DNA from: Lachnospiraceae bacterium
GTDB lineage: Bacteria; Bacillota; Clostridia; Lachnospirales; Lachnospiraceae
DNA: 43,141 nucleotides
Reading direction: 5' to 3'
Assembly (NCBI GenBank): GCA_016281385.1
Contig: JAEEIN010000176.1
Coordinates: forward strand, 1-43,141
Shown: positions 4,907 to 32,101 of the stretch, in pieces
Numbering within the stretch: position 1 is the first letter of the stretch
How the letters are laid out: every line of letters begins with the position of its first letter
Position numbers and translations under genes: made by a program
Notes under the pieces: model-generated
Databases searched by the model: none
What the model was told of the DNA's origin: nothing
What the model saw: the letters and a program-made list of their open reading frames with translations, nothing else

Positions 4907-7017
4907 ATCTTTGTTCCTTCTGAAAGCCCTTCTATAACCCAATAATTTGTGGAGTCGGAGCCGCCGGCTATAAAGCTCTTTACGGTCTTAACTCCGTTTT
5001 CCTCAACGGTAACATAGGTGATACCGTCAACTACCGTTACCGCACTCTTCGGTACCAGCACAACGTCATTGACTTCTCTCACGGAAGCCTTCACCGAGAA
5101 TGAGGTTCTTGTCCACCATCCGTCGGCGCCTATATTTGATTCAGCCATTCTCTTAAGATCTTCGGATGAAACCTGGATCAGCGTATAGTCATTCTTCAGT
5201 TCGTCGCTGAGAGCCCAGGAAGAAACCGTTACAACCGATCCCTTCGATACAACACTCTGTCCCGAGCCGTCCTTGTAGCTTATGTCCGCTTCATTTCCGC
5301 AGGTAAGCTGTCCTGATTTATCCTCGACAACAACATAGCAGTTATCTTCCTTGGAAATAATTGCAACCCATGCATTCTTAAGAAGGATATCTCCCTCTTC
5401 GAAGTTGCGAACATCGGTTATGATGCCGTCATAGGGAGCAACTATTTCTGTCTTTGCTGCGTCGCTCTTCATTTCGGAAACCTGTTTATTAAGTTCCGCT
5501 ATGTATTCGCGCTTTGCCTTGATCTGACGCTTGTTCTTCTCCTCACCGCCTTTGATGAGTTCCTGAAGATCTTCATTTGCTCTTAAGATCGTGCGTTCTT
5601 TACGCCTTATGGAGAGGTCGTCCGCCGTAACCCAGATGGTGGCAATGACCTGTCCCTTTTCAACACGCTGGTTGCGCTTTACATTTACTTCTTTAACATA
5701 AGCAGTACCCCACTCGATGGGATTTCTTACATACTGCTGATTTGAGTAGAACAGATAACCCGTTGCGGAGAAATCCGTTGAAACGCTTCCCTTTGTAAGG
5801 GTTGCGGTCTTTGTTTGGTCAGTGCTCTTTATATCCGCAAGGACCTGCTCGCCTTCGGAAAGTCCCGTAAGGATCTCGGTATACATTCCGGCTTTGATAC
5901 CGGTCTTAACCTGTCTCTTAACGTTTCCTTCACCGCTCTTTACATAAACAAATGGACCTTCGTCATCCTTGTTGAGTGCTTCGTTGGGAACCGTTAATGT
6001 ATCAAGGCTCTGCCTGTTCACAATGAGAATGAGCACATAATCACCGGCCTTCAGTTCTCCCGCAGGATCACTTATGCGGAATGTTGACTTTGCATCGGCA
6101 ACGGAGGTTATTGTCGCATTTGCCTCAGGCTCAACAAATTCGACCTCATAGCGCTTTCCGTTTGAGAAACCGAAAACTTCGATGGCCCTCTTTACATCAC
6201 TTGTGATGATGTAATCGGTCTTTACCACCATATCGGTAAAATCTCCCACTGCCGCTACGGGAACATCCCTTGAAACCCACTCGTTCATGTCAAAGAATCT
6301 GATTCCAACAACTTTTCCGTCGATCTTTGAAGAAACAACAACGTCCTCACGATTGATGGCAAGTCTGTTAAGCCTTGTGTTGTAATGAGCAAGATCCAGT
6401 TCGTAGTTATCCGTACGTTCCTTAATGTCCTGCTCCAGATTCTCTCTTTCTGCTACAGCCTTTACGTAATTATAGATACAGCTGCCGGTATCGTATTCTC
6501 CGGCTGTTTTGTTGTAAGCAGCAATTTCTTCTTCGGTCCAGCCTTCGATATTCTTTGCGATATCGCCCCAGTACTTTTCGGCAGCCTTTGCAACCGCAAG
6601 CCTTTCGTTGTACTCTTCCATATCCTCATTGTAGGATTCCTTGAGTGCGGAAATGGATTCTTTTACACTCTTGACCTCTTCGTCAAGTTTTTCCGTAGAG
6701 GCGTTTACAAGAGCATCACCCTTGCTGACCGTATTTCCGGGAAGGTTCGCATAAGTTGAAAAGTTCTGATCCGTGGGGAAGGAGTATTCATAAACCGTGG
6801 GAACGACCTTACCGTTTAACTGTGTATAGGTCTTCATGTCCCTTCTCTCAACCGTTGCATAGGTTTCGGTACTTCCAACAGGATCGATAAGTTCAACCGA
6901 ACTTTCCTCTGTTTCGCTTTGTTTCTGTCCGCACCCGGCCAATGCCGTTCCCGATACTGCCATAGAAAGAACCAGCATATACACCGATGCGTTACGTATG
7001 AATTTTTTTAACATCAT
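4894..7017 (-). CDS. HlyD/MFP-type periplasmic adaptor lipoprotein, apparently two adaptor units in tandem
   Basis: Lipobox-like 'SGTALAGCGQ'; coiled-coil hairpin segments and biotinyl-lipoyl-like segments occur twice (aa ~50-390 and ~395-707); ATGA overlap with the upstream gene. Confidence 0.83.
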   Translation of the reverse strand: MMLKKFIRNASVYMLVLSMAVSGTALAGCGQKQSETEESSVELIDPVGSTETYATVERRDMKTYTQLNGKVVPTVYEYSFPTDQNFSTYANLPGNTVSKGDALVNASTEKLDEEVKSVKESISALKESYNEDMEEYNERLAVAKAAEKYWGDIAKNIEGWTEEEIAAYNKTAGEYDTGSCIYNYVKAVAERENLEQDIKERTDNYELDLAHYNTRLNRLAINREDVVVSSKIDGKVVGIRFFDMNEWVSRDVPVAAVGDFTDMVVKTDYIITSDVKRAIEVFGFSNGKRYEVEFVEPEANATITSVADAKSTFRISDPAGELKAGDYVLILIVNRQSLDTLTVPNEALNKDDEGPFVYVKSGEGNVKRQVKTGIKAGMYTEILTGLSEGEQVLADIKSTDQTKTATLTKGSVSTDFSATGYLFYSNQQYVRNPIEWGTAYVKEVNVKRNQRVEKGQVIATIWVTADDLSIRRKERTILRANEDLQELIKGGEEKNKRQIKAKREYIAELNKQVSEMKSDAAKTEIVAPYDGIITDVRNFEEGDILLKNAWVAIISKEDNCYVVVEDKSGQLTCGNEADISYKDGSGQSVVSKGSVVTVSSWALSDELKNDYTLIQVSSEDLKRMAESNIGADGWWTRTSFSVKASVREVNDVVLVPKSAVTVVDGITYVTVEENGVKTVKSFIAGGSDSTNYWVIEGLSEGTKICLE

Positions 7018-8084
7018 TTTTTCACTACCTTTTCGCCCTCGGCAAGGCCATCTATGATTTCTACCCTTTCGTCACCGAAAAGACCGATCGTAATATATTT
7101 AATGGTCCTGATATTGTCTTCGTTAAGCATGTAAACAAATGCTTCATCTCCTGCAATATGTACCACATCCTTGGGAAGAGAAAGTACATGTGACTTCTGA
7201 TCTTCAATTATGGAAATGGTTCCGCGGGTTCCTACATCGATCACCGCATTGTCAGGGCCTGTATAAACCACAAACTTCATTGAGTCTGTCCAGTTTTCCA
7301 TTTCATAAGGAAGAAGAACATAATCTCCCGCAGCCGATGAGAAAGGAATATTCATATCCACCATCTGACCTTCTTTGAAAAGATGCTTGAACTCCGTTCC
7401 TTCAACCTCGAACTTACAGTCCGTGCTGTCAACGATGTTCATGATAACCGCATCAGCCTTTGAGGTAGAACCTTCAAGGTTCTTCTTAAGCTTGTAAACA
7501 ACCCCATCGAATTCTGCGTAAAGACGGCTTTCTTTAAGTTCCTTGCGTTTTCTTGAAAGTTCCTCACGGTCAAATTCCAGTTCGTCGTTTGTAAGTACCT
7601 TCAAACGCTCATAGCTGTCCTTTGTTGCCTGAACTCTGTCTGCATATGACTGACTTGCATAATCATAATGCTGATAAAGGAAAACATCCTGAACCGCAAG
7701 ACCTGCTTCTACATCATAATTGGCAAGCTTTAATTCGTTTTTCTTTACCTTGTATTCAAGTTCTTCTATCTGCGCCTCCAGCTCGGAAGAAGAAAGCTCG
7801 CATAAAAGATCTCCCTTTTTGACTACATCGCCCTCTTCAACATAAACCTTGTCCACATATCTTCCCGTTACGTTAAAGGAAACTTCCTGTGCATTTGACT
7901 GGGAATATGTGCAATCGATCTTTCTGGTAAGAATGACATCGTCATAGGTTACCTGAACGAGGCTGTAGGATACAACCTCTTCTTCTGAATCAACCATGAC
8001 AAGAGGAGCTTCTTCCGTTTTACCGCAGCCGCAAAGAAGAAACGCGGCCAAAGTGATTGGTAATAATTTCTTTTTGAATCTCAT
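7014..8084 (-). CDS. Efflux periplasmic adaptor subunit (HlyD/RND-like MFP), lipoprotein
   Basis: N-terminal lipobox LLCGCGK; 'GRYVDKVYVEEGDVVKKGDLLCELSSSELEAQIEELEYKVKKNE' lipoyl/hairpin pattern; C-terminal 'IIDGLAEGEKVVKK'. Confidence 0.88.
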   Translation of the reverse strand: MRFKKKLLPITLAAFLLCGCGKTEEAPLVMVDSEEEVVSYSLVQVTYDDVILTRKIDCTYSQSNAQEVSFNVTGRYVDKVYVEEGDVVKKGDLLCELSSSELEAQIEELEYKVKKNELKLANYDVEAGLAVQDVFLYQHYDYASQSYADRVQATKDSYERLKVLTNDELEFDREELSRKRKELKESRLYAEFDGVVYKLKKNLEGSTSKADAVIMNIVDSTDCKFEVEGTEFKHLFKEGQMVDMNIPFSSAAGDYVLLPYEMENWTDSMKFVVYTGPDNAVIDVGTRGTISIIEDQKSHVLSLPKDVVHIAGDEAFVYMLNEDNIRTIKYITIGLFGDERVEIIDGLAEGEKVVKK

Positions 8085-8134
8085 TTCTGTTTACTCCGTT
8101 TTTTTGCCTGTGTAAGGCCTTTCATTTCTTTATG

Positions 8135-8167
8135 ACCTTACTTATAATACATTCTTATGTCAATCAA
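8135..8167 (-). promoter_or_regulatory. Candidate promoter of the export operon
   Basis: Minus strand reads TTGATTGACATAAGAATGTATTATAAGTAAGGT: TTGACA (8158-8163) and TATAAG (8141-8146) are both present but their mutual spacing (11 nt) is wrong; alternative pairings are possible. Located in the only long gap upstream of the operon. Confidence 0.3.
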
Positions 8168-8274
8168 TTCCTATTAATTCTTGCTATTTTCATGACCCTT
8201 TTTGCGAAGAACTGTGAACATTTTGTGAAAATTATTAACGGATTATTAGCAGAATGGATATTTATTAAAGCAGA

Positions 8275-8314
8275 AATTAAAAAGAAGACAGCGCCCGGAA
8301 AACACTGTCTTCTT
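8275..8314 (-). terminator. Intrinsic terminator after the solute-binding protein gene
   Basis: Minus strand AAGAAGACAG-TGTTTTCCGGGCG-CTGTCTTCTT followed by TTTAATTT; perfect 10-bp stem 38 nt after the 8352 stop. Confidence 0.85.
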
Positions 8315-8351
8315 ATTAATTATGTTATTTGTTGATAGTTACAAAGCTAAA

Positions 8352-9851
8352 TTAGTTGTTAGCTTCCTCGATGTACTGCTTGTACATGTCACGGCATCCG
8401 TCAAGGATCTCAGAAATAGGATCCATGTCAGGATAGAACTTCCATGTGAAAGGAGCACCCATGTCGAGGTTAGGAATGATGGACTGAAGCTCTACAGTAG
8501 AGTTCTTGGACATAAGCGGTACAGTTTCCTTACAAGCTCTCTCATCGAAGTTACCTGTAGCTGTTGTGTTAACATAAGGGTTGTAATCTTCGAATCCGGG
8601 AACGAACTCGTTGTAGAGGCTGTATGCGAATGCACACTTCCAAGCTCTGTCAGCATCATAGCATGAAGGAATGATGCAGATGTTATCCTGTGCTGTCTGG
8701 ATAAGAGATCCCTTAGGTCCCTTCGGGAACATAACGAATCCAAGCTCGTCCTCTGTCTCATAGAAGAGGTTGCCGGGTGTTGCGCAGTACTGCTGATCAC
8801 AGCAGAATGCACATCCGCCTGTCTTGAACTGGTTCTGATAGTAATCCCATGCTGCTGCATTTCCTTCCTCGTCTACAGGACCATTCCAGTCATACTTGTT
8901 GAAGATATCACGAACCCACTCAAGAGCTTCAAGAGTCTCGGGAGATTCGAACTCATATGTGTACTTGCCGTCAGCATCCTGACCAACATACTTACCGCCG
9001 TTAGAGAATACAGCTGCGGAAACCATAACACCTTCGTTTACGCCGATACCCCAGATATCGATGGTACCATCGTTATCGGTATCACGCTGAACCTTCTCAA
9101 GGATCTCTTCGAATGCTGCCCATGTCCATGTGTCATTAGCCTGCATGTCGTAAAGAGACTCGGGATCAACACCGGCTTCCTGAAGAAGTCTCTTGTTGAA
9201 GTAAAGACCTGTTCTGGGCTCTGCCCAACCAGCTCTCATAGCGTAGATTCCGCCGTCGATTGTATAAAGCTTGTGAACGCCGTTAGCGAACTTAGGCTCG
9301 CTGAAGTCAAGGCAATCAAGTGTTGAAAGGTCATATACAAGACCGTTGTCAACTGCTGAAAGCATTGTAGCATCACCTGAGTGAAGGGTGAATACGTAGT
9401 TGTTGTCATCTCCGCCTGCTGTTACATAATCAACGAAGTCCTGAGCAACTGAACCCCAGTCACCGATGGTCTCACCGTGAATCTTGAAGTTGTATGTCTC
9501 CTGGATCCAATCCTGATATGCGTACTGAGCTTCTTCGAAATCAGTCTTAGCTTCTGCTCTTTCAGCAGATGTGAACCAGTCACGAACTACGACTTCGATT
9601 CCGCCAAGGTCGTAAGGTGCGCCTGTTGCAGGATCGATAAGTACGGTGTACTCGCTAACTTCTTCTTCTGCGGGAGCTTCTTCGGAAACTTCGGTGGAAG
9701 TCTCTTCCTTAGAGGTCTCGGTAGAAGTGCTGTCGGTGCTTGCAGGTGCAGAAGCGGAAGTATCTCCACCCTTACCACATGCTGCAGCACTCATGGTCAT
9801 AGCTGCTGCAAGAGTAGCTGCTAAAACCTTCTTTGCCATAGGCTTTCTCAT
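8352..9851 (-). CDS. Extracellular solute-binding protein (sugar ABC), lipoprotein
   Basis: Signal with lipobox 'MTMSAAACGKGG', Ser/Thr/Glu-rich linker, then family-1 SBP features ('GIYAMRAGWAEPRTGLYFNKRLLQEAGVDPESLYDM...TWAAFEEILEKV'); strong SD AAGGAGG. Confidence 0.93.
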   Translation of the reverse strand: MRKPMAKKVLAATLAAAMTMSAAACGKGGDTSASAPASTDSTSTETSKEETSTEVSEEAPAEEEVSEYTVLIDPATGAPYDLGGIEVVVRDWFTSAERAEAKTDFEEAQYAYQDWIQETYNFKIHGETIGDWGSVAQDFVDYVTAGGDDNNYVFTLHSGDATMLSAVDNGLVYDLSTLDCLDFSEPKFANGVHKLYTIDGGIYAMRAGWAEPRTGLYFNKRLLQEAGVDPESLYDMQANDTWTWAAFEEILEKVQRDTDNDGTIDIWGIGVNEGVMVSAAVFSNGGKYVGQDADGKYTYEFESPETLEALEWVRDIFNKYDWNGPVDEEGNAAAWDYYQNQFKTGGCAFCCDQQYCATPGNLFYETEDELGFVMFPKGPKGSLIQTAQDNICIIPSCYDADRAWKCAFAYSLYNEFVPGFEDYNPYVNTTATGNFDERACKETVPLMSKNSTVELQSIIPNLDMGAPFTWKFYPDMDPISEILDGCRDMYKQYIEEANN

Positions 9852-9942
9852 AGTATTTTCCTCCTTTATTATGCACTCGCTGAAGCCGGTGAAATATAAC
9901 CTTCCGGGTCATCCGATCTTCGCGAAAAACATACACATATAT

Positions 9943-9948
9943 TTTATA
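9943..9948 (-). promoter_or_regulatory. Candidate -10 element of an internal promoter for the solute-binding protein gene
   Basis: Minus strand ...TGTGATATAAAATATATG... inside a 139-nt gap in an otherwise tightly packed operon; no convincing -35. Confidence 0.3.
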
Positions 9949-9990
9949 TCACATTGTTCACAAAAAATCCATATTTTTGTCGTAATTTTG

Positions 9991-11010
9991 TTACATTTTT
10001 ATACCTGTGCTGGAAATACTCTCAACAAAGGCTTTCTGAGCTATCAGATAAACAACAACGATAGGAAGCACGATGAGCAATGTACCGGTTGAAAGGATAC
10101 AGTTGGTATACTGAGTCGATACACCGGTCTGTGCGTTTGCCGCACCGTTCTGTCTTGCAATGTAAACACCAAGAGCATCTGCGATGGATGCAAGAGATGT
10201 GCTGACAAGCTTCTTTCCGCCGATGAAAAGCTTTGAGTAGAAGCCATCTGTCCACTGCCATACAAGAGAGAACAGGAAGCATGATGTAACAATGGGTTTT
10301 GACTGAGGAACCATGATCTTTGTAAATGTCTTGAACATTCCGCATCCGTCAATATATGCGGCTTCCTCGAGGTCAACGGGGATGTTTCTGAAGAACTGTC
10401 TTACAAGGTAGATATAGAGACCGTTCTTAAGACCCATGCAGGTTAAGCTCATAAGGTAGTAAGGAACAACCGAACCTCTTAAATTGATGGGGCCGCCCTT
10501 TAATGCCTTAAAGATTCCAAGGATATCATAGTTACTGAAGTGAAGCACCAGGGAACTGGAGAATGCCTGGGGCGGAACTATGATGAGTGCAAGCACACAA
10601 CCGAACCAGAAGTTCTTAAGAGGGAACTTGAATCTTGAGAATCCGTATCCTACTATCGTACACATTGCTGTCTGAATGATGGCAATGGTAAGGGATATGA
10701 TGATGGAATTCTTAAGAGCTTCCTTATAGCTCATGATCTCGGCAGCAAGTTTGTAGTTCTCACCGGTAAAATGAAGCGGTATCGATACAACGATGGGATT
10801 GTAAAGATCCTGCTGTTCCATGAAGCTTACGGAGATCTTGTTAAGGATCGGCTGAAGGATCAGGAAGCACATACCGAAAAGAAGTACGAACCTTACAAAC
10901 TTTATGAACACCTCTCCCACATCATGTCTTAAGAGATATCCGCCGGACTGCCTGTTTCTTTCCCAATAGGTGCCATATTTTTTTATTTCAACTGTTTTAC
11001 TTTTCGTCAT
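9991..11010 (-). CDS. Carbohydrate ABC transporter permease (MalG-type)
   Basis: Binding-protein-dependent permease EAA loop 'VDLEEAAYIDGCGMFKTFTKIMVPQSKP'; overlaps the preceding permease gene by 14 nt. Confidence 0.93.
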   Translation of the reverse strand: MTKSKTVEIKKYGTYWERNRQSGGYLLRHDVGEVFIKFVRFVLLFGMCFLILQPILNKISVSFMEQQDLYNPIVVSIPLHFTGENYKLAAEIMSYKEALKNSIIISLTIAIIQTAMCTIVGYGFSRFKFPLKNFWFGCVLALIIVPPQAFSSSLVLHFSNYDILGIFKALKGGPINLRGSVVPYYLMSLTCMGLKNGLYIYLVRQFFRNIPVDLEEAAYIDGCGMFKTFTKIMVPQSKPIVTSCFLFSLVWQWTDGFYSKLFIGGKKLVSTSLASIADALGVYIARQNGAANAQTGVSTQYTNCILSTGTLLIVLPIVVVYLIAQKAFVESISSTGIKM

Positions 11011-11908
11011 TGTAATATACCGCCTTTGATAATAAGAAAGATGTTATCGCTATGAACAGCGTGATTATCAGGAAGTAGCACCAGGCCATCGCCGAAGCGG
11101 GTCCGTATCTTAATTCCGTAACCATAACCTTATCGATCTTGGACATTACGTCGTTATCGGATCTCATACTGAAGTCTACGACTGTGTAGATCCAGTTTAC
11201 AAGGAAGATGGAGCTTACCATAGGGAAGGTAATCTTCCAAAGGCTCTCCCACTTCGTACATCCTTCGATATAAGCGGCTTCATACATACTGCTTGAGATA
11301 CTCTGAAGACCGGATATGAAGATGATGATCTGAATACCGGAAGCGGTAGCAATATCATAGATGTTATCGATTATCTCGAATACCCAGTTGTAAGCTCTGG
11401 TACCTACGCCTGCGGTCTCAAGGACTTCCTCCAGAACAGCCGTGATACTTACGTTTGCAGCTGCAGCTTCAACCGTATCGGCGATCTGAGCCATCAGAGA
11501 GTTGTTTTCCTCAAGTCCGAGGATAACGCCGGATGACATGATAACCGGAAGGAAGAATACCGCTCTTACCAGTCCCCTTGCTTTGAAATCCTGATTAAGA
11601 AGTAAGGATACAAAGAAACTGAATACGATGATACCGATTGAATAAAGGATCATCTGCGGAAGGACATCCGTTAAATTCACGAGATAATCCGGGTCAATCC
11701 TGAATGCATCATAGTAGTTCTTGATACCGACCCACTTCATGTCTACCACACCGGCTCCCAGCGTAACCTCGCAGAAGCTCATGTAGAGTGATTCAAACAA
11801 GGGTTTGAACAAGAAGAGCAGGAATCCGATTATAAAGGGTGATATGAACAAGTATCCCGCTATGGCTTTTCTTTTTTGAAGACCCGTATACTTTTTAGCT
11901 TTCTTCAT
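10997..11908 (-). CDS. Sugar ABC transporter permease (MalF-type)
   Basis: EAA loop 'SMYEAAYIEGCTKWESLWKITFPM'; N-terminal 'KRKAIAGYLFISPFIIGFLLFLFKPL'. Confidence 0.92.
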   Translation of the reverse strand: MKKAKKYTGLQKRKAIAGYLFISPFIIGFLLFLFKPLFESLYMSFCEVTLGAGVVDMKWVGIKNYYDAFRIDPDYLVNLTDVLPQMILYSIGIIVFSFFVSLLLNQDFKARGLVRAVFFLPVIMSSGVILGLEENNSLMAQIADTVEAAAANVSITAVLEEVLETAGVGTRAYNWVFEIIDNIYDIATASGIQIIIFISGLQSISSSMYEAAYIEGCTKWESLWKITFPMVSSIFLVNWIYTVVDFSMRSDNDVMSKIDKVMVTELRYGPASAMAWCYFLIITLFIAITSFLLSKAVYYNDEK

Positions 11909-11953
11909 TGCCTGTCTGACCTTTCAAATATTGAATAAAGTAACTTGTATATC

Positions 11954-14563
11954 TTACTTGCTTACAAAGTAATCTCTTGCAGGAACCGTGATTCCGTCAA
12001 CGGAGTAATCTGCATATCCGTAGTTTACATATGCCTTTGTACCGTCTTCGTAAACCGTTACGCTGACATCCTCTGTAAGGATCTGATGATCAACGATCTC
12101 CTGATTGAATGTATGTCCAAGTCTTTCATTGTATGTATTGTAGATGGACATCATACGATCATTCCAAAGTGAGAAATCAGCTCCGTAATACTCGGGATAG
12201 ATCGTCTTCTGTAATGTAAAGGATGATTCATCCATAAGCGTGAAGGAAAGACCTGCGCCGTATTCAACAGCATAGAGAACTTCCTCAACATCATTACCGC
12301 ATACATTGATGGGCATTCCCGTGTAATCTACATAACCGTGGAGAGCGATCTGTGTGAAAGGAACACCACCGTCAAGAATGGTGTATTCGCTTCCCTTAAG
12401 ATCAACTTCTGCGATAAAGTCCGCATAGGGTATCGCATAGGAGTTACCGGAGTTGATCATGATCTTCGTGCCGCCGTCCTTTGCATTCTTAAGCAGTTCT
12501 GACTGCTGAACCATTGCATCTTCACGGGAAGTGTAATTCTTTCTGTAGAAGTCGGAGGAAAGATCGCGTCCGATATCCTGGAAAGAAGCTCCGACATTGT
12601 ACTTGCCGGCCGTTTCAATAAGCTTGTCTGCCGTCTTCGCTATCCTGTCGGGATGGAGAAGGAAGTAACTGTCAAGTCCGTCTCTTGCCACATAAGTGAT
12701 AGCACTGTATTCATATAACTCCGCACGCTTACGGCTTAAGAACTTGGCTGCATCGGTATATGAGAAGAAACCGTTGAACAGGTTGCTCTTGAAAGCATAT
12801 TCGGTAATACCGTCAAAGTAGAGGTCGACTCCAAGTTCATTTGCCTTATCGGTAAGAGCCTGAAGGTCCTTCTTGCTGCCAAGTGCATGTATGGTACGAA
12901 CATTCTTTAATATCTTCTGCTTAACGCCGCCGTTACACCAGCCCACATATTTAACCGTCAGATTGTCGATACCCTCCGAAGTAAGGGTTTCGATCATGCC
13001 TGCAGCTTCCTTGTATGTGGTAAGTGCAAGAGGTCTTGAAACGGGAACACCAAGGATCTGTCTTACCTTATCAACGGCTCCGACGATCTGAACATTGACG
13101 GGTGTTGACGTATCGTCATTCTTTGTAAGATATCCGGGATACTTATCCATGAGATACTGCCTGTAGTCACGGGCCATATCAACATAGCTTCCGGAATCTA
13201 TAAATGTATATCTCTGTATTATGCTTTCATCCTGAGGAAGATCCTCAAGATATACGTACATATCCTGGTTGGAGTTTGCTCCGAGATCGTATCTCTCACG
13301 AGCCTTCATGGTATACTCGGCACAAACATGGTTGTAATTCGTATTTCTTCCGGAAACATCCGCAGTAATGGATGCATATGCGGAACCGCCTTCGATTATG
13401 CAAAGGAAGGAGTCGTTTCCTTCTGCTATACCGTAAAGATTAAGATTGGCCTGAGTTGAATGAACCACATCTTTTCTTTCAATGGCCATATCCCAGCCGT
13501 AAACATTTGCGTAGTAAAGGTTCTGCTTACTCTTTCCGTTGTTGAAGTTGATGATGGATCCGCCGCCTTCGGGAACAAGCATGTAGCCTTCTTCATCAAG
13601 TCCGCCCGCTCCGAAGTAAGGAAGCACGGAAACCTTTGAAATGGGGAACTCGCTCTTTCCGTCAAAACCTGAAAAAGGAACTTCAACAACGAGATTTTTG
13701 CCTTCGAGTCTGTAGATGACCGTTGCGTTAAATACAGGTGCTGTATTCACGCCTTCTCTCTGGTTGACTTCTTTATCTCTTAAGAAGTCTTCATATGTAT
13801 ATCCCGCAGCTTCGAAATAACCCTGAAGCATCTTCTTCTTAACATCTCTTAAATCATCGGGAGATCTTAAGATGTATAAAGGTTCGGTCTCAAGAAGAGG
13901 ATAATTTGCCAGAAGTTCTTCTTTATTGTCCTTCTTGCCAAGCTTATTGATATCGTAAAGTTTGTAAAAGCCCTTTACGGAAGACTTGTCCGTCTGATCA
14001 AGATTGGCCATCAGAGCATCGAAGTTCTTCTCTGTGATGGCAAGAGGGAAAATATATTCCTTGGAGATCTTACCTATGGAATAATCAACCTTGATATAAT
14101 CATCACCCGTTTCGATCTCGTATACACCGTTCTCGGTACTGAATGTATGAGTATCCAGAGTAACGTCAAGACCTGCTTCCGTACCGTATGTAAGTAAAAA
14201 GTCTGACTGAAGTTTTCCCTTTTCTTCATTTACCGCGATGGCATCGTTGGCACCGTCAACTGCTGTGGAGTGCCATACCTTACCGGTGGACTTGACCGTG
14301 ATGTCAAAGTGTGTTGTAAGGGGATCCATCTCAAGCTTTATATCATCATTTTCAAGAATGATGGGCTGTTCATCGCCGGCATATGCTCTTACTTCGATGA
14401 TCTCCTCTTCCTTCGGCCTTGCCTGATACTGCATAACGAAAATGATAAGACCTGCTATGATCGCAAGAAGAATAGCCGGGAAAATAAAGCCCTTAAGCTC
14501 CTTTATTATGCTATTTCTTATCTCACGTTTTCTTTCTTCACTGATTGGATTCAATCTACTCAT
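11954..14563 (-). CDS. DUF5696-like membrane-anchored protein, putative glycosidase-like fold
   Basis: 869 aa; N-terminal TM 'FIFPAILLAIIAGLIIFVMQY', then an extracellular beta-rich region and a C-terminal TIM-barrel-like region (VDLYFDGITEYAF...LDSYFLLHPDRIAKTADKLIETAGKYNVGASFQDIGRDLSSDF). Family assignment from memory of similar proteins. Confidence 0.7.
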   Translation of the reverse strand: MSRLNPISEERKREIRNSIIKELKGFIFPAILLAIIAGLIIFVMQYQARPKEEEIIEVRAYAGDEQPIILENDDIKLEMDPLTTHFDITVKSTGKVWHSTAVDGANDAIAVNEEKGKLQSDFLLTYGTEAGLDVTLDTHTFSTENGVYEIETGDDYIKVDYSIGKISKEYIFPLAITEKNFDALMANLDQTDKSSVKGFYKLYDINKLGKKDNKEELLANYPLLETEPLYILRSPDDLRDVKKKMLQGYFEAAGYTYEDFLRDKEVNQREGVNTAPVFNATVIYRLEGKNLVVEVPFSGFDGKSEFPISKVSVLPYFGAGGLDEEGYMLVPEGGGSIINFNNGKSKQNLYYANVYGWDMAIERKDVVHSTQANLNLYGIAEGNDSFLCIIEGGSAYASITADVSGRNTNYNHVCAEYTMKARERYDLGANSNQDMYVYLEDLPQDESIIQRYTFIDSGSYVDMARDYRQYLMDKYPGYLTKNDDTSTPVNVQIVGAVDKVRQILGVPVSRPLALTTYKEAAGMIETLTSEGIDNLTVKYVGWCNGGVKQKILKNVRTIHALGSKKDLQALTDKANELGVDLYFDGITEYAFKSNLFNGFFSYTDAAKFLSRKRAELYEYSAITYVARDGLDSYFLLHPDRIAKTADKLIETAGKYNVGASFQDIGRDLSSDFYRKNYTSREDAMVQQSELLKNAKDGGTKIMINSGNSYAIPYADFIAEVDLKGSEYTILDGGVPFTQIALHGYVDYTGMPINVCGNDVEEVLYAVEYGAGLSFTLMDESSFTLQKTIYPEYYGADFSLWNDRMMSIYNTYNERLGHTFNQEIVDHQILTEDVSVTVYEDGTKAYVNYGYADYSVDGITVPARDYFVSK

Positions 14564-14587
14564 AATAACTCCCGTGCTCTGTATTTC

Positions 14588-15244
14588 TTACAGTCGATAC
14601 AGCATTTCTTTGAATAATGATATAAAGTAAGCCACACCCTGAGATACCATACTGAAGAAGAGCATCAGTAAGAATATCATGACAAGCATTGCAAATATTG
14701 TAGCGATAAGGAACAGAATGTTCTTTCCGAAAGAATACTCATGTACCTGGCTCATTCCGAAGATACCGATAAAGAGTACCCAAACGATTGCTATGGTGTA
14801 CAGCGCCGAATAGAATTCAGCTTCATCCACCGTAATATAGTTACTTAAGAACATTAACGGGAACTGGATGAGGGGATAAGGTGTCAGCGCGTAACAGGTG
14901 GCTATATAAACCTGCCCCAGACGACCTTTACCGTCAAACAGTGTAGTCAGCGCCCAGTTTCCTATTACAAACAGGAAGAAGGGAAACAGTACACTGGCGA
15001 TATATGTAAAGACATTAAGATCTTCCCAGTACACCTGAATGAATATGAAACTCGTATATCTGAGTCTTAATACATAGGCTGCCACTGCTAAGAACAAAAT
15101 GGTGTTAGCCGCTGCATAGGATCCTCTCTTCTCGTGCGTAAGATCCCAGAACCCGTCGATGGGATGGGTAAGACAGTAAAGCGAGAACTTTAAACTTTTA
15201 AAATATCGCTGCCAATTTTCCTTGCTGGTTAATGCTGCAAACAT
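14588..15244 (-). CDS. YIP1 family membrane protein
   Basis: N-terminal 'LKFSLYCLTHPIDGFWDLTHEKRGS' motif followed by about five hydrophobic helices. Confidence 0.75.
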   Translation of the reverse strand: MFAALTSKENWQRYFKSLKFSLYCLTHPIDGFWDLTHEKRGSYAAANTILFLAVAAYVLRLRYTSFIFIQVYWEDLNVFTYIASVLFPFFLFVIGNWALTTLFDGKGRLGQVYIATCYALTPYPLIQFPLMFLSNYITVDEAEFYSALYTIAIVWVLFIGIFGMSQVHEYSFGKNILFLIATIFAMLVMIFLLMLFFSMVSQGVAYFISLFKEMLYRL

Positions 15245-15256
15245 GCCGTTTCTCCG

Positions 15257-16786
15257 TTAATTATTGTATTTGAATGCATCTGAGATCAAGAACTCGCGCT
15301 TGATCGCCTTTACCTTTCCGATTCCCAGAGGAATAAGGAAAAGTGCCAAGAGTACAACTACGATTATGAAGATATGATCTTCAACATATTCCTTACGGTA
15401 CTTCTTGTATGCCTTTGAGTAGTTCTCATCGTCATACTTAAGTTTGAAGTAATCCATTGCTTCGCCGTATTCCTTCTGTCTTAAATAAGCTCTTCCGAGA
15501 CCGATATAAGCCAGATCGTAGTTACCGTTGTATTTCATTACTTCACGCCAGGTCTTTCCGGACTTGCCGTATTCACCGTTATCGAACTGATCCATGGCGT
15601 CAAATACCAGCTGACCGAAATCGGTAAGTGTGAAGAGTGTGATCGTACAGTCAAGTCTGTCAACAACGATAAGGTCGTAATCCATATGTTCAAGACCGAG
15701 GGGCTCTCTGAAGTAACCGTCCATGTTGCCGGCACCGCCGAAAACAAAGATCATACGTCCCTGATCGTCATATCCGAAGAGACGTCCGCGGTTTCTGTCG
15801 AGGCATACATAGGAATCGTTGTCGAATACCGTTACATCCGCAAATTTTGAAGGTCCGGAATATCCGCCGCCGTTACCCATGTAAAGGTCACCGTAAATAG
15901 GGAACTTTCCGTCGTAATAAACACCGTTTCTTATAAGGATGTCATCACCCAGAGGATTTATCCTTCTGATGGCATCGGCATCTCCGCCTCTAAGATCCTC
16001 TGCTTCGACGTTACCGGTGCAGGCATATATGAATCCTTCCTTATCCATGTAAAGGTTATCGTACTCTGTGGGAACAAAGGATTCCATCTTATTTAACTGT
16101 TCCTGAGTCGCGATCTTCTTCATGAGGTACATCTTGAAGTCAAACACAACAGGCGTAGCACCTACAAATCCGGTAAAGGATCCGTCTGCCTCGTACTTGA
16201 TAAGACCTTTGTTGATACCTGCAGCTACGCAATAAACACGCTCTGCGGAATCAACTGCGATCTTACTGGGCTGGTAAACGATATCTTTATCGATGGAATT
16301 ATCTATGGGCTTTGTGAATTCCATGATGTAGTTAAGGTTGGAATCCAGTTTCAATATCCTGGCATTTCCCTTGTCCGCGATAAAGATATTGCCTTCATCA
16401 CTGATGGCGATATCCGTGGGTGAAGAAAATGTATCGGGACCGGTTCCGCCTGTAAAGGATGTGATCTCCCTTACATACTCTATGGATTCACGTGCGGTTC
16501 TCTCAAATTCCAGGATTCGATTGTTACCCGTATCAAGAACATAGATGAAATTGTCCTTAACATAAACACCCTGCGGGCTGCTCAGTTTCTTTTCGAGACC
16601 TAACTCGGTTGAGGTAAATACCTTACATACCGAGTACATATCGGGTGAATCCTGAACATCTCCCCAGTAGTCATAATTGTAAGTGTAGCTTCTGTCGATA
16701 GTGGTGGCATATCCGCTTATTGATGAAGCGAAGAACATGCCGGCACTGATCGCAAGAGCACAGATTTTTGTAAACCCTTTTCTCAT
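15257..16786 (-). CDS. NHL-repeat beta-propeller protein with TPR-like segment and C-terminal transmembrane anchor
   Basis: Signal peptide; repeats such as 'SPQGVYVKDNFIYVLDTGNNRILEFER' and 'SPTDIAISDEGNIFIADKGNARILKLD'; 'YDLAYIGLGRAYLRQKEYGEAMDYFK' TPR; 'IFIIVVVLLALFLIPLGIGKV' C-terminal TM. Confidence 0.85.
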   Translation of the reverse strand: MRKGFTKICALAISAGMFFASSISGYATTIDRSYTYNYDYWGDVQDSPDMYSVCKVFTSTELGLEKKLSSPQGVYVKDNFIYVLDTGNNRILEFERTARESIEYVREITSFTGGTGPDTFSSPTDIAISDEGNIFIADKGNARILKLDSNLNYIMEFTKPIDNSIDKDIVYQPSKIAVDSAERVYCVAAGINKGLIKYEADGSFTGFVGATPVVFDFKMYLMKKIATQEQLNKMESFVPTEYDNLYMDKEGFIYACTGNVEAEDLRGGDADAIRRINPLGDDILIRNGVYYDGKFPIYGDLYMGNGGGYSGPSKFADVTVFDNDSYVCLDRNRGRLFGYDDQGRMIFVFGGAGNMDGYFREPLGLEHMDYDLIVVDRLDCTITLFTLTDFGQLVFDAMDQFDNGEYGKSGKTWREVMKYNGNYDLAYIGLGRAYLRQKEYGEAMDYFKLKYDDENYSKAYKKYRKEYVEDHIFIIVVVLLALFLIPLGIGKVKAIKREFLISDAFKYNN

Positions 16787-16801
16787 AATCGACCTCGTAA
16801 A

Positions 16802-17707
16802 TTAATCCTTTAATCCGGAGCTTGCCATCGTCTCAAGGATCTGGCTCTCTGAGAAGATGAAGATTGCTATCGGTACTATCATTACGACTACCAGCACGGC
16901 TGCGCCCTGTCCGGTTCTTGCGATACCGCCGGCCTGAATCTGCTGGAGTGCGAAAACAAGCGTTTTCTTTTCTTCGGAATAAATGAAGGTTGAAGCTCTG
17001 TTGTTCCAAAGTCCCTGTACCGAGAAGATGATAAGAGTCATCCACGCGGGCTTAACGTTGGGCATTACGATTCCGGAGAATACCTTCCACTCATTTGCAC
17101 CGTCGATCTTTGCAGCTTCAATAAGTGCGGTGGGAAGTCCTTCCATGAACTGCTTCATAAGGAAAAGTCCCATGGGTGAAGCAAATGCGGGAATGATGAT
17201 GGCCCAGTATGTATCGATCCATCCCAGCTTGTTAAGCAACATATAGTTGGGGATCTGTGTTACATAACCGGTAAACATCATTGCCACGGTAACAAGTTTG
17301 AAAAATCCCTGGTTACCGGGGAACTGGTACTTTGCAAGTACGAAGGCTGCCATTGATGCGATGATCAGGTGGCCTGCAGTTCCGGCGAATGTGATGAATG
17401 CCGTATTGAACAGGTATCTTGAGAACGTAACCCAGGATTTACCCATGGTTACGAACAGATCCGAGAAGTTGTCAAGCGTGGGGTGCTGTGCAAATACCCT
17501 GGGAGGGAATTTGAAGAGCTCGTCAAGAGGCTTCAGTGCAGCACTTACCGCATAAACAATGGGGAAAGCCATAATACATGCCACAATGATGAGGAAAATA
17601 TAAAGAGCTATATCTCCCGCTATGGATCTGTTGGGCTTTCTTCTTTTTATTAAAGGTTTGGTGTAAACCGCTTCTTCAACGGTTGCTTTTTTCTTCTTTT
17701 TGCTCAT
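16802..17707 (-). CDS. Carbohydrate ABC transporter permease (MalG-type)
   Basis: EAA loop 'ALIEAAKIDGANEWKVFSGIVMPNVKP'; six hydrophobic helices. Confidence 0.93.
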   Translation of the reverse strand: MSKKKKKATVEEAVYTKPLIKRRKPNRSIAGDIALYIFLIIVACIMAFPIVYAVSAALKPLDELFKFPPRVFAQHPTLDNFSDLFVTMGKSWVTFSRYLFNTAFITFAGTAGHLIIASMAAFVLAKYQFPGNQGFFKLVTVAMMFTGYVTQIPNYMLLNKLGWIDTYWAIIIPAFASPMGLFLMKQFMEGLPTALIEAAKIDGANEWKVFSGIVMPNVKPAWMTLIIFSVQGLWNNRASTFIYSEEKKTLVFALQQIQAGGIARTGQGAAVLVVVMIVPIAIFIFSESQILETMASSGLKD

Positions 17708-17709
17708 TA

Positions 17710-18648
17710 TCAGGTTCCTACTCTTCTTAACAGACTCTGGATTGCTTTATTACACAAGATCATCATCAGGAACAATATGGTTGCTATCGCACACGCATAT
17801 CCCATTTCAAATCTTGAGAAACCGTAGTCAAACAGGTGTGTTACGATGGTACGTGCTGCGTAGTCCGTTGAAGGATATCCGCAAAGGGCCATTGTAACGT
17901 CACATACGCTGAATGCCTGTGTGATGGACATAACCGCACCGAACATAAGCATGGGCTTCATGTTGGGCAGGGTGATGTACCAAAGTTCCTGCCATCTGTT
18001 CTTGACACCGTCCATATATCCTGCTTCGTACTGAGATCCGTCGATACCCTGAAGTCCGGCAACAAATGAAAGGAATCCGGTTCCAAGAGACATCCAGAGG
18101 ATAACCGCCATACAGATTGGAAGCATGTACTGGGGATTAACGAGCCACAGTATAGGCTTGTCTATAAGACCGGTGCTCATCAGAAAAGCGTTTGCGTATC
18201 CGTATGCATCACCTCTGAAGAATACCGAGAAGATAACGTAACAGTTACCTGCGATGGAAGGTGCGTAGAAAACAACTACGGCTACGGAACGGATCCATCT
18301 GGGGAGTTCGTTGATGAGCCATGCGAACAGGAATGACATTATGTATCCCAAAGGTCCGGTGAACAGCGCTATCATCAACGTGTTCTTAATGGAAGTAAGG
18401 AATATCTCATCCTCAAGTATCAGTGAAATGTAGTTCTGAAGGCCCAGAAATCTGGGTGCTTCAAGTATGTTGTAATAGGTGAAGCTGTACCATATGGAAG
18501 CTACAACCGGGTATACAAAAAACATACAGAACAGGATCGCATAAGGAGCCAGGAAGAGGTAGCACATCTTGCTGCGCTTCATCTTTTTGACGGCAACTTT
18601 TGCATCATGTGCCCTCATTTTGAAGTATTTTTGAAAAAACTCTCTCAT
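17710..18648 (-). CDS. Sugar ABC transporter permease (MalF-type)
   Basis: EAA loop 'SQYEAGYMDGVKNRWQELWYITLPNMKP'. Start moved to ATG 18648 (MREFFQKYF), giving an ATGA overlap with the upstream gene. Confidence 0.92.
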   Translation of the reverse strand: MREFFQKYFKMRAHDAKVAVKKMKRSKMCYLFLAPYAILFCMFFVYPVVASIWYSFTYYNILEAPRFLGLQNYISLILEDEIFLTSIKNTLMIALFTGPLGYIMSFLFAWLINELPRWIRSVAVVVFYAPSIAGNCYVIFSVFFRGDAYGYANAFLMSTGLIDKPILWLVNPQYMLPICMAVILWMSLGTGFLSFVAGLQGIDGSQYEAGYMDGVKNRWQELWYITLPNMKPMLMFGAVMSITQAFSVCDVTMALCGYPSTDYAARTIVTHLFDYGFSRFEMGYACAIATILFLMMILCNKAIQSLLRRVGT

Positions 18649-21626
18649 TCGTCCATCTCTCCTATCGGCTTCTCTTCGGTCCACATGCCGAACTCTTTAC
18701 GCTTACGCATAATCTCGTCGTCGATCTTGACCGAGTAATCGATAATGGTCTCACGGGTATCATCCTTGTCGTTGATAACCTTACGAAGTGCGTTGGTTAT
18801 ATGACGTCCGGTGTAATATCCGCCGGGAACCTCACGGATACCCACTGTCCAATCCCACTGCTCATTGAGGATCTGGATATCGTGATAGCTCCATGATAAC
18901 TGTGAAAATGCATCTCTGTTGGAGGTTGCATAACGTGCGGAGGATCCGAGCAATGCTTCGATCTCTCGACCGAAACGAACCTGTGTATCGGGATCTGCCC
19001 ACCACTTCATGAACTCCCAGGATTCATTCTTCTTTCCGTCGTGGCAATCGATCATCATCGTCGCTGTACCTGCAACGAAGTCTGAACGATCGATATAAGT
19101 ACTTCCGTCTTCAAGTGTGTATTCCGTACCGGGGATAAGGGTGAAGTCCCAAAGTCCTCTGATTTCGGGTGCGGAAACCATCAATGTGTTGTATGTCTGA
19201 TACGAAGCGATACCGATGGGCATTTCTCCCGAACGGAAACGGCTTACAAAGTCGTAAATTGCGGGGAGACCGTAATCGTTGAAGTATCTCTCGTAATCAT
19301 CGAAAGCCTTGATGCCGGCTTCATCATCAACTGTTGTATATGTACCTGCCTCGTTGTACATGTCACCGCCGTTCTGATACAGAAGCGAGAAGTACATCGA
19401 CAGGTCGGGGTTGTTACTCATAACCGATGTGGAAGCTGCGGTTGTTGAGCTTGAACCTGATGCGGAAGGAATACCCACCGACAGGTTGTTACCCTGAATC
19501 GTAGGTAACATTTCAATAAGTTCCTGCCATGTATTGGGAGGTGTAAGTCCCAGTTCCTCAAGAACGTCCTTACGATAGAACATTACATTGAAGGTCTGTG
19601 TCTCGGGAACACCGTAGATAGCTCCGTCAAGTCTGAACTGCTCGTAGGAACTTTCCTGATAATGGGAAAGGACCTCTTCCCAGCCTTCAAACTGTGTGAT
19701 GTCCACCGAAGCACCACGGAGCGCAAAGTCTACGGGAAGGTTGGAGCCTACGGTAAGAACCACGTTAGGTCCGCGTCCCGCCATAACCGCACTTAAGAGT
19801 GCGCCCTGGTCAACAATCTCTACGTTGACGGGAACTCCGGTATTGGGTGTAAACGAATCGTCGATCATGGACTTAAGGATGGTTCCCTGATCACGACCGG
19901 TAAGTACCCAAACCTTGATGACCTTTGTATCCTTTGCCTTTTCATCATATACATCTCCGACGGAGTTGTAATCTACATAGAAGGATGCGGCAAAGGATTT
20001 GATCTCGTGCCATGCCTTGGTGAAGAAGTTAGCCTTCTCCTTCTTGGGCTGGACATTCGTTCCGGAAATTGCGATATAGTCAATATCCAGACGAGAGAGG
20101 CTTAAGTTAAGCTGCGCCGTACCGAGCGCAGTAACGTTATCCTTAAAGGTCGTAAACTCAAGTGTGATCTTCTGAGGTTTTCTGCAGAATCTTTCAAGCT
20201 GTTGGGCAACCGTCTGAGCGGATGCGATCTGATCTGCTTTCTGTCCCGAATAAGCAACCATGTCATCAACCGTCTTGAAGAGTCTCATCGACTCAAGCTT
20301 CATGGCCTCCATGATCTCGGGATAGTTTATGTTGATCTTGTAATCTCTGTACTGATCGGGATTTGCTCCGGTATAAACAAGGAGCTTTCTGTATACGTTA
20401 TTAAGTCTGAAGGTGGAATTTTCAAGTTCCTCAAGGATCGCACCGAGACCGCCGAGGGTTGCCTCAAGTCTGATGGTGTGCTTGCCCTTTGTGAGGTAAA
20501 AGTTGTAAGGGATTCCATCTTCGTCCGCAAGGTCCTTGCATTCCCAGTCATTCTTATATGCGAATGAAACTTCGTTAAGTTCCTCAAAAGGAACCTCACC
20601 GTCAATGTATACTCGTCTGTTGGAAACGTTTCCTCTGGAGTAGTTCTGACGTGCTTTAAGCATAATGTTGTAGTAACCGTCCGCAGGAACTTCAAATTCC
20701 CACTCGATCCACTGACCGTTGTCTCTCCAGGTTTCGCCGCCGACATAGTTCAAAACCGTGTATGTAACGGAATTGGGCTGTGTGGTGGGTGAAGATCTGT
20801 CGAACTTTGCATAAAGGGAAGATTCGGAACGGATCGTGGAATCCTCGCCCTGAACTATCTCTAAGAAATCTCCTGCAGCTCCTCCGGTGGATTTGCCGGA
20901 GTTTGCAGTGGTGTACTCTTCATATGTAGGTTCAACGCAGACAGCCGCAACGCTTACCTTCTTTAAATACATAGGCTCGTTCTGGCTTTCAAATGTAAGC
21001 TCATTCTCACCCTTTTCAAAGTAGAACTTAAGGGGCTCGATGACATAACCCATATCGTCTCTTAAATAAGCGGACTGCCAGTCGAATACTTCAACCTGAG
21101 TGGGACGGATCTCGTTGCCCTGGTTGTCGATCTTCTTGGGGCCGCCGTCTGTCCATATTCTTGAAAATGTGATATTACGTGCTATCTCATAGGGGCATTC
21201 GCCATTGATATAAACTCCCCTTTCAGCCTGAACGCCGCGTGACTTGGGGATGAGGTACTCAATGTAGATATTGTAGAAACCGTCTTCCGGTATATTGACT
21301 TTCCATGTAACCTTTGCTTCGTTGTCGGTGAAAAGCGCTTTGTCAATTCCTTCAACATTGCTCTCCACGGTTACGTTGCCTTCGGATGTATAATTAAAGA
21401 GATCGACATCAACGGTCTGTGTCGAGTCCTTCGCATCTGCATGCGCATTCATATATCCGGAGTAAGTGCCGGTACGCTCCATTCCGGCCACTTCCTTTGT
21501 AAGGTCCTGACCTGCATACTTGTCACTGAAATCATCAACTTTCCTTAACGACAAAAGAACACATAACACAACAAATGCTGCGATTACCGCTAATGTGATG
21601 ACAACCTTTTTGGCATTCTTACTCAT
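18645..21626 (-). CDS. Extracellular solute-binding protein fused behind two beta-sandwich (CBM-like) modules
   Basis: N-terminal TM (KKVVITLAVIAAFVVLCVLLSL), two related modules (NIYIEYLIPKSRGVQAERGVYINGECPYE... and YNIMLKARQNYSRGNVSNRRVYIDGEVPFE...), then a family-1 SBP (VPETQTFNVMFYRKDVLEELGLTPPNTWQELIEMLPTI). Start moved to ATG 21626, which has GGAGG SD. Confidence 0.87.
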   Translation of the reverse strand: MSKNAKKVVITLAVIAAFVVLCVLLSLRKVDDFSDKYAGQDLTKEVAGMERTGTYSGYMNAHADAKDSTQTVDVDLFNYTSEGNVTVESNVEGIDKALFTDNEAKVTWKVNIPEDGFYNIYIEYLIPKSRGVQAERGVYINGECPYEIARNITFSRIWTDGGPKKIDNQGNEIRPTQVEVFDWQSAYLRDDMGYVIEPLKFYFEKGENELTFESQNEPMYLKKVSVAAVCVEPTYEEYTTANSGKSTGGAAGDFLEIVQGEDSTIRSESSLYAKFDRSSPTTQPNSVTYTVLNYVGGETWRDNGQWIEWEFEVPADGYYNIMLKARQNYSRGNVSNRRVYIDGEVPFEELNEVSFAYKNDWECKDLADEDGIPYNFYLTKGKHTIRLEATLGGLGAILEELENSTFRLNNVYRKLLVYTGANPDQYRDYKININYPEIMEAMKLESMRLFKTVDDMVAYSGQKADQIASAQTVAQQLERFCRKPQKITLEFTTFKDNVTALGTAQLNLSLSRLDIDYIAISGTNVQPKKEKANFFTKAWHEIKSFAASFYVDYNSVGDVYDEKAKDTKVIKVWVLTGRDQGTILKSMIDDSFTPNTGVPVNVEIVDQGALLSAVMAGRGPNVVLTVGSNLPVDFALRGASVDITQFEGWEEVLSHYQESSYEQFRLDGAIYGVPETQTFNVMFYRKDVLEELGLTPPNTWQELIEMLPTIQGNNLSVGIPSASGSSSTTAASTSVMSNNPDLSMYFSLLYQNGGDMYNEAGTYTTVDDEAGIKAFDDYERYFNDYGLPAIYDFVSRFRSGEMPIGIASYQTYNTLMVSAPEIRGLWDFTLIPGTEYTLEDGSTYIDRSDFVAGTATMMIDCHDGKKNESWEFMKWWADPDTQVRFGREIEALLGSSARYATSNRDAFSQLSWSYHDIQILNEQWDWTVGIREVPGGYYTGRHITNALRKVINDKDDTRETIIDYSVKIDDEIMRKRKEFGMWTEEKPIGEMDE

Positions 21627-21871
21627 AACTTCCTCCATAAAAAACGACCGCATAACTATGCAATCTGTTGCTTATACACCATATACTATATTTTAGGTTT
21701 CAGCATGTCTTATTAAATAATGCTTTTTTTTGGTCATCGTTTGCGCAAAATTTACAACATAAAAAGTCAAAAAATGATAAACGTGCACATTTTTTCCGTC
21801 ACTTTGCCATCAAAAAACAGGTTTTTACAATAAAAAAACGAATAAGTGCACAAAAACATTGCCCTGTTTTA

Positions 21872-21974: not shown

Positions 21975-22928
21975 ATGCCTTCCTATAATAATAGCAATCA
22001 AAACAATTACGATAATTTCAATTCCGTCAACTCGGATTACGGAGACCGTTATGTCGAGGACAATCAGGAGGAACGTGTAAAGTTCCTTCCCAACTCTCTC
22101 CACCGTATCTGGTTAAACAATATTCCCGTCGGTTTTAAATCCCATTGGCACTCAGCCATTGAGATCATAGTCCCCATGGAGAACTGGTATAAAGCTCTTA
22201 TCAACGATGAAGAGTTTCTGATCAATCCCGGGGATATCTTCATAATCCCTCCCGGAGAGGTTCACGAACTGACCGCCCCGGAATCGGGAAAGCGTTTCAT
22301 CTTCCTTATGGACATTTCCATCATAAGCAGGATCCGCGGATTTGCGGGTATTCAGTCCTTACTGACCCACCCTCTTCATATAACGAAGGAATCCTATCCT
22401 CTTGTTTATGACGATCTTTATCAGATGCTTGTACAGATCAGAAACGAGTACTTCGAAAACAGCGAATATTCCGATCTTGTGATCCAGGCCAGACTGATCG
22501 ACCTTTTCGTAAGGCTTGCCGAGAATCACATCCATTCCGATGAGCTCTTCCCCGACGTCAAGCCCTACAAGCAAAAAGAATATGTTCAGAAATTCAACCA
22601 GACTCTTGAATACATCGATTCCCACTATACGGAGGATATCAGCCTCGGCACCATCGCAAGTCACGCAGGCTTCTCCAAGTACCATTTTTCAAGACTGTTC
22701 AAGATCTATACGGATTATACGTTCTGCGATTATCTCTGCTACAGACGTATAAAGGCTGCCGAAGAACTGCTGGCGATCCCGGATTACTCCATAACGGACG
22801 TTGCGATGCAGGCGGGTTTCTCAAGCATCTCGACTTTCAACCGATTATTCAAGCAGCATAAGGGATGCACTCCCAGCCAGTACCGTTCCAAGCATACCGT
22901 GGGCGGCGGCTACAAAAATTATCATTGA
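21975..22928 (+). CDS. AraC family transcriptional regulator (cupin sensor plus two-HTH DNA-binding domain)
   Basis: C-terminal 'ISLGTIASHAGFSKYHFSRLFKIYTDYTFCDYLCYRRIKAAEELLAIPDYSITDVAMQAGFSSISTFNRLFKQHKGCTPSQYR'; N-terminal cupin-like 'HWHSAIEIIVPMENWYKALINDEEFLINPGDIFIIPPGEVHEL'. Confidence 0.96.
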   Translation: MPSYNNSNQNNYDNFNSVNSDYGDRYVEDNQEERVKFLPNSLHRIWLNNIPVGFKSHWHSAIEIIVPMENWYKALINDEEFLINPGDIFIIPPGEVHELTAPESGKRFIFLMDISIISRIRGFAGIQSLLTHPLHITKESYPLVYDDLYQMLVQIRNEYFENSEYSDLVIQARLIDLFVRLAENHIHSDELFPDVKPYKQKEYVQKFNQTLEYIDSHYTEDISLGTIASHAGFSKYHFSRLFKIYTDYTFCDYLCYRRIKAAEELLAIPDYSITDVAMQAGFSSISTFNRLFKQHKGCTPSQYRSKHTVGGGYKNYH

Positions 22929-31020: not shown

Positions 31021-31050
31021 AATTGATACCCCATGCGTAAACCTTCCGGT

Positions 31051-31812: not shown

Positions 31813-31828
31813 CCGTCAGTCCATCCTT

Positions 31829-32098
31829 TTAAGGATTATCCGTACTACCCTCATTCTCATTTTCGGGTGCCGGTTCTTTTTCTATAACCTCACCCTCAGG
31901 TGCGACAGTTTCCTTGTCCTGCTTTTCAAATGAATCCAGTATCATCCGGATGATACAGCCGATCATATAAAAAATAACAAGGGTCGCAAGCAATGCAATA
32001 AGCATTGAACTTAAATCAAAGCCTTTAAAGTATGTAAACAGCGCGGTCACAAGACCGGCTGTTAACATAAGTACCAAAGGCATCTGCCGTCTGGTCAT
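31829..32098 (-). CDS. Hypothetical two-TM small protein with acidic C-terminal tail
   Basis: 89 aa; two hydrophobic helices, then 'KQDKETVAPEGEVIEKEPAPENENEGSTDNP'; lies between cheD and fliA. Confidence 0.6.
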   Translation of the reverse strand: MTRRQMPLVLMLTAGLVTALFTYFKGFDLSSMLIALLATLVIFYMIGCIIRMILDSFEKQDKETVAPEGEVIEKEPAPENENEGSTDNP

Positions 32099-32101
32099 CG
32101 A

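Follow-up and report, generated by a model that had tools for sequence, protein, structure and literature searches.

A doubled ABC importer with an obligate NHL, YIP1, and DUF5696 trio: a probable glycan capture-and-import system of Firmicutes

Oligosaccharide importers of the CUT1 kind combine a solute-binding protein (SBP) with a MalF/MalG permease pair that carries EAA loops, and in Firmicutes they often draw on a shared MsmX/MsmK/UgpC ATPase, as in the pectin importers of Bacillus subtilis (PMC5730181). In Lachnospiraceae, the Gram-positive polysaccharide utilization loci of Butyrivibrio bring together importer, regulator, and carbohydrate-active enzymes (CAZymes), including xylan-type enzymes (PMC6344614). 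We analyzed a 43,141-nucleotide stretch from a Lachnospiraceae bacterium (GenBank assembly GCA_016281385.1, 2.67 Mb in 193 contigs; contig JAEEIN010000176.1, positions 1 to 43,141; hereafter, the window), in which nine minus-strand open reading frames (ORFs) at 8352-21653 encode two ATP-binding cassette (ABC) importers and, between them, an NHL, a YIP1, and a DUF5696 protein. Both importer halves belong to the CUT1 kind: each has an SBP, MalF/MalG, and EAA loops, the operon has no ATPase, an MsmX-like gene lies elsewhere in the genome, and CAZymes are neighbors. In contrast to the CUT1/MsmX importers, the operon has two permease pairs, a 1000-amino acid (aa) anchored SBP with jelly rolls, and three obligate non-transport proteins. 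As in the Butyrivibrio loci, an importer, an AraC regulator, and CAZymes (GH43, SGNH, GH8) are co-localized in the window, and CAZymes flank the relatives too; a search of PMC6344614 for NHL and YIP1 found neither, and that paper does not describe the double-importer core and its trio.

Open-access literature (PMC) yielded no description of DUF5696, of YIP1 with ABC importers, or of NHL with SBPs, and RefSeq plasmid records label parts of the cluster generically. Within the open-access literature searched, the obligate trio, the doubled importer, and the anchored SBP with its modules resembling carbohydrate-binding modules (CBMs) are undescribed. The alginate importer AlgQ/AlgM1M2S of Sphingomonas would be an earlier case of an ABC system that takes in long glycans by means of large SBPs. 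It has a single permease pair and its own ATPase, is Gram-negative, and has no NHL, YIP1, or DUF5696; we take the resemblance as a lead only. The features of the operon, in the direction of transcription, are as follows.

18645-21626, minus strand: SBP1002, with a transmembrane (TM) anchor, two jelly rolls (CBM35/CBM6-like), a helical stalk, and an MBP-type domain (SBP_bac_8, E 1.1e-22)
17710-18648, minus strand: MalF-type permease A (BPD_transp_1, E 3.3e-12; EAA loop in 128 relatives; relatives 312 aa)
16802-17707, minus strand: MalG-type permease A (BPD_transp_1, E 2.2e-13; EAA loop)
15257-16786, minus strand: secreted NHL beta-propeller with a short TPR-like part and a C-terminal TM helix (NHL, E 8.1e-16; TM 472-490)
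14588-15244, minus strand: YIP1-family multi-span membrane protein (Pfam Yip1, E 3.3e-12, over cutoff; alignment)
11954-14563, minus strand: DUF5696 protein, membrane-tethered and extracellular, with a GH129-like fold (PF18952, E 6.8e-195; AlphaFold2; Foldseek; TM 26-44)
10997-11908, minus strand: MalF-type permease B (BPD_transp_1, E 1.4e-6; EAA loop in 165 relatives)
9991-11010, minus strand: MalG-type permease B (BPD_transp_1, E 2e-11; EAA loop)
8352-9851, minus strand: SBP499, a lipoprotein SBP and the variable member of the set (lipobox AAAC at 22-25)
8282-8314, minus strand: intrinsic terminator-like hairpin at the operon end (15 pairs and a T tract)

The nine genes form a real operon, not a chance neighborhood. 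Intergenic gaps range from -40 to 45 nt, with the exception of 139 nt before the last SBP. An earlier note made from the sequence alone had described nine tightly spaced minus-strand genes in this order, closed by a terminator, with two MalF/MalG pairs and no ATPase; the ORF listing and the Pfam matches (an SBP family, BPD_transp_1 four times, DUF5696, Yip1, and NHL), together with the hairpin at 8314-8282, bear this out. Its other descriptions held in part. The layout that it called mirrored does have SBPs at both ends, but the permease pairs run in tandem, each F then G, and are not inverted. The 1002 aa given for the first SBP correspond to the longest ORF, from 21653, but the likelier start is 21626 (993 aa), because GGAGG precedes the ATG there. 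The protein named NHL/TPR has its NHL repeats, but its TPR part is weak (TPR_16 scores 19.8 bits; the cutoff is 32.7). The probable start of the MalF gene of pair A is 18648, which makes the protein 312 aa long, as in relatives.

We drew DUF5696 loci from three sources: 200 genomes from the same family, 399 genomes phylum-wide, and 80 loci from GTDB, the last mostly from rumen and gut Lachnospiraceae and including named Butyrivibrio, Lachnotalea, and Clostridium isolates. Sampling was one genome per species, and the GTDB collection was scanned with a 12-sequence DUF5696 alignment, a 21-sequence alignment being too diverse. In the family sample, full-length DUF5696 was defined by E up to 1e-90, and weaker matches in other genomes (E 1e-51 to 1e-4, partial profile coverage) were left out of membership. 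Independent profile searches placed full-length DUF5696, NHL, YIP1, and SBP1002 in the identical 40 of the 200 family genomes (set identity was computed for DUF5696, NHL, and YIP1, and the SBP1002 list was compared by eye). Phylum-wide, NHL was present in 41/41 DUF5696 genomes, and the two further NHL genomes without DUF5696 were one fragment and one weak match. Among the 129 loci with enough flank, NHL was found in 125, YIP1 in 124, the downstream permease pair in 122, and SBP1002 in 120, and the same gene order recurred in most of them, across families. In 12 genomes where the SBP1002/permease A module is often missing from the locus or rearranged, SBP1002 itself was present in all 12. Pairwise distances among the eight core proteins, over 84 loci, correlated at 0.95-0.99, and those of SBP499 at 0.89-0.95.

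Recurrent gene fusion is classic evidence for two proteins working as a unit, and NHL and YIP1 are one fused protein in 42 of 166 loci. The DUF5696 tree shows eight changes of fusion state, and well-supported branches force at least four of them. The second full-length DUF5696 copy of the source genome, on another contig, is accompanied by such an NHL-YIP1 fusion, in which Pfam calls both domains over cutoff. Because of the co-occurrence, the gene order, the fusions, and the retention of SBP1002 when unlinked, the two importers and the trio (NHL, YIP1, DUF5696) behave as one system. The earlier note had staked its idea of one system on the three central genes being conserved with the two permease pairs; a neighborhood search shows that they are conserved together. 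Its wider proposal, a single polysaccharide-use system with a borrowed ATPase, is strongly supported by this co-occurrence, order, and fusion, by the CAZyme flanks, and by the MsmX-type gene elsewhere.

The nine genes probably encode a single system, tethered to the membrane, that captures and imports glycan, and for it we infer a physical complex, a ligand, a hand-over, and a scaffold role. In this mechanism, two anchored proteins, the GH129-like DUF5696 and SBP1002 with its pair of glycan-binding-like modules, would grip a plant oligosaccharide or polysaccharide at the cell surface. YIP1 and the NHL-TPR protein would together make up one membrane scaffold unit, in contact with the permeases, that links SBP1002 and DUF5696 to both MalF/MalG channels. 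Ligand would reach the permeases from SBP1002 and from SBP499, the exchangeable lipoprotein; a shared MsmX-type ATPase would drive the permeases, and the cytosolic GH43, esterase, and GH8 would break down the imported, probably decorated, xylo-oligosaccharides. A stronger version is tentative: a single envelope supercomplex in which an NHL-YIP1 scaffold would bridge two ABC channels, and a catalytically dead GH129-like glycan receptor together with a CBM-bearing SBP would load them, importing long or decorated polysaccharide as a Gram-positive functional counterpart of SusCD-type uptake.

The AlphaFold2 model of SBP1002 (mean pLDDT 86.7) had oligosaccharide and sugar SBPs as its top Foldseek matches, in line with Pfam SBP_bac_8/SBP_bac_1, and its jelly rolls gave weak CBM35/CBM6 matches, below cutoff. 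SBP499 scored 25.6 bits against SBP_bac_1, just below the cutoff of 26. It lies downstream in 116 of 161 loci by a strict profile, and some Paenibacillus-like loci have an SBP upstream instead of downstream. A GH10 enzyme in two loci (L041, L186) that matched a loose SBP499 profile (E 4e-5) was a false hit; the strict profile was used for the tally.

Several observations weigh against a single glycan importer of this kind. The SBP1002/permease A module is not beside the trio in several non-Lachnospiraceae genomes, and common descent of a single locus can account for part of the mirror-tree correlations. Co-occurrence is evidence of functional coupling, not of contact. Moreover, the Paenibacillus cellulosilyticus copy adjoins three LLM-class flavin oxidoreductases, not CAZymes, and glycans may not be the sole cargo.

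The closest described relatives of the DUF5696 protein are the GH129 enzymes, NagBb of Bifidobacterium bifidum and the GH129-like 3,6-anhydro-D-galactosidase of Zobellia (PMC5698469), which share with it an N-terminal beta-sandwich, a TIM barrel, and a C-terminal beta domain. Its AlphaFold2 model was confident (mean pLDDT 87), Foldseek against the Protein Data Bank (PDB) returned GH129 first (5opq, E 4.9e-32; NagBb 5wzr, E 3.3e-24) and then GH101, and the sequence profile alone reached 5opq (E 9.5e-12). The Pfam family Glyco_hydro_129 (PF11308) did not match the DUF5696 protein, for which DUF5696 was the sole Pfam family at E up to 0.01, and a PF11308 search of the source genome found nothing. 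As a bridge to GH129, PF11308 was set aside: it occurred in only one genome in 300, where its protein mapped the catalytic residues partially. Unlike GH129, DUF5696 is membrane-tethered and, in the samples searched, occurs only alongside this importer set; an N-terminal hydrophobic segment is present in 170 of 179 DUF5696 sequences, and 19 look like lipoproteins.

With such a fold and sequence similarity, DUF5696 could be an active cell-surface exo-glycosidase that, in the manner of GH129 enzymes, trims the glycan ahead of its import, the remainder being an ordinary importer pair. We compared it with the catalytic residues NagBb D330 and D435 and Zobellia D202, D486, E517, and E531 (PMC5698469). 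Two aspartates of the window protein, D663 and D671, could match Zobellia D486 and are common in relatives but not invariant (65% D/E and 84% D; alignment uncertain). Against activity, the only positions above 95% D/E across the 179 sequences are D358 and E767, and neither maps to a known catalytic site. The NagBb D330 column holds K548 in the window protein and is variable in the family, and neither this column nor that of Zobellia D202 is acid family-wide (the alignment is uncertain in this region). The stretch aligned with Zobellia E517 (704-707; alignment again uncertain) reads N/S/G/N in the window protein, its conserved residue being N707. DUF5696 thus differs from GH129 in having no family-wide catalytic acids at the tested positions, as far as this uncertain alignment allows, and because no expected barrel acid is conserved family-wide, it may bind the glycan rather than cut it. 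Judged by these alignments, catalysis is doubtful and an active exo-glycosidase is unlikely; of the "glycosidase-like ectodomain" proposed earlier, the fold stands, but the activity is in doubt.

A second alternative is that one SBP-permease set, with the trio, is not a second importer but senses glycan and governs how the other set is expressed or how active it is. AraC or histidine kinase/response regulator genes do lie beside many copies, the covalent membrane anchoring of SBP1002 would suit a receptor, and SBP499 is the variable, presumably substrate-specific piece. However, EAA loops are present in all four permeases, with the key E and G at least 95% conserved across 128-165 relatives, as expected of energized importers, and Pfam found no signaling domain in any of the nine proteins. 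Because these loops are kept in all four, both pairs look, by sequence, like energized importers, and the sensor is quite unlikely.

Two ordinary, independent CUT1 importers beside unrelated membrane genes by chance are very improbable and were rejected: each permease pair with an SBP would make a complete importer and the modules are separated in some lineages, but four components share identical genome sets, SBP1002 persists in 12/12 genomes of often unlinked or rearranged layout, order is conserved across families, and the NHL-YIP1 fusion recurs.

For the capture-and-import system that we favor, the energy source would lie outside the operon. An MsmX-like ATPase of 367 aa is encoded on another contig of the source genome (C147) and would serve the operon; this gene supports the earlier suggestion of an ATPase borrowed from elsewhere in the genome. 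The window operon and nearly all the loci sampled lack an MsmX-type ATPase, and an ATPase local to the cluster was rejected for these. The exception is the plasmid copy of P. cellulosilyticus (L251, 4930-23215), where a ugpC ATPase gene adjoins the cluster. The window does have two ABC ATPases at 551-2105, but they are part of a distinct downstream group of FtsX/HlyD type, not of the operon. Besides the two ATPases, this group (551-8084, minus strand), past the terminator, encodes an FtsX-type permease of 945 aa and HlyD-type adaptors of 356 and 707 aa. In many close relatives (e.g., L167, L169-L172, L176), genes of corresponding size come after the cluster, and this neighbor group seems conserved too.

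Upstream of the operon lie a regulator and three enzyme genes.

21975-22928, plus strand: divergent AraC-family regulator, probably of the operon (HTH_AraC, E 9.2e-24; AraC beside the cluster in many relatives)
22975-24522, minus strand: cytosolic GH43 with GH43_C2, linked enzyme (E 1.2e-38; same neighbor in L167 and L190)
24549-26258, minus strand: cytosolic SGNH/GDSL esterase, linked enzyme (Lipase_GDSL_2, E 3.6e-12)
26412-27533, minus strand: cytosolic GH8, linked enzyme (E 2.9e-20; no signal peptide or TM)

The cargo of the window copy is likely xylan-derived oligosaccharides, because GH43, the SGNH esterase, and GH8 adjoin it; the Butyrivibrio hungatei copy has GH10, SGNH, GH3, and SASA around the cluster, with a 577-aa SGNH protein adjoining. 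The second copy of the source genome (G000:C83, L033/L034) is probably arabinan-directed, since its flanks hold GH43, GH51-type arabinofuranosidases, and an FGGY kinase, along with a mannitol dehydrogenase. Among 96 flanking proteins, the commonest families were GH43, GH130, GH3, GH31, GH26, GDSL esterases, GH2, GH51-type, GH28, and GH5; with so many CAZyme families in the flanks, the core set is not tied to one glycan. Between AraC and SBP1002 (21783-21851), two GTGCAC copies lie 63 bp apart, one partly kept in L167, and are possible AraC operator half-sites. Beyond GH8, the minus strand at 29434-38645 carries flagellar-type (FapA), sigma-factor, chemotaxis (CheA, CheB, CheW, CheC, CheD), and PilZ genes that are, as far as seen, unrelated to the operon.

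Copies of the cluster also vary in location and number. The 243-kb Butyrivibrio fibrisolvens plasmid pNP243 (L250) carries the whole cluster at 2891-21164, accompanied by GH43 and by a paired histidine kinase and response regulator, and the cluster can thus ride extrachromosomal replicons. Two family genomes (G159, G148) have at least 5 to 6 DUF5696 matches each, with YIP1 matches even more numerous in G159, which suggests lineage-specific expansion of the system for many substrates.

Taken together, the gene set of gut and soil Firmicutes looks like one machine for catching and importing plant-fiber fragments. If this is true, a widespread set of membrane proteins that has had no name (DUF5696, bacterial YIP1, NHL-TPR) would gain a role in fiber uptake in Lachnospiraceae, Paenibacillus, and other Firmicutes, and the gene set could serve as a marker of polysaccharide loci in genomes. 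It would also help explain how Gram-positive fiber degraders capture large plant glycans without SusCD.

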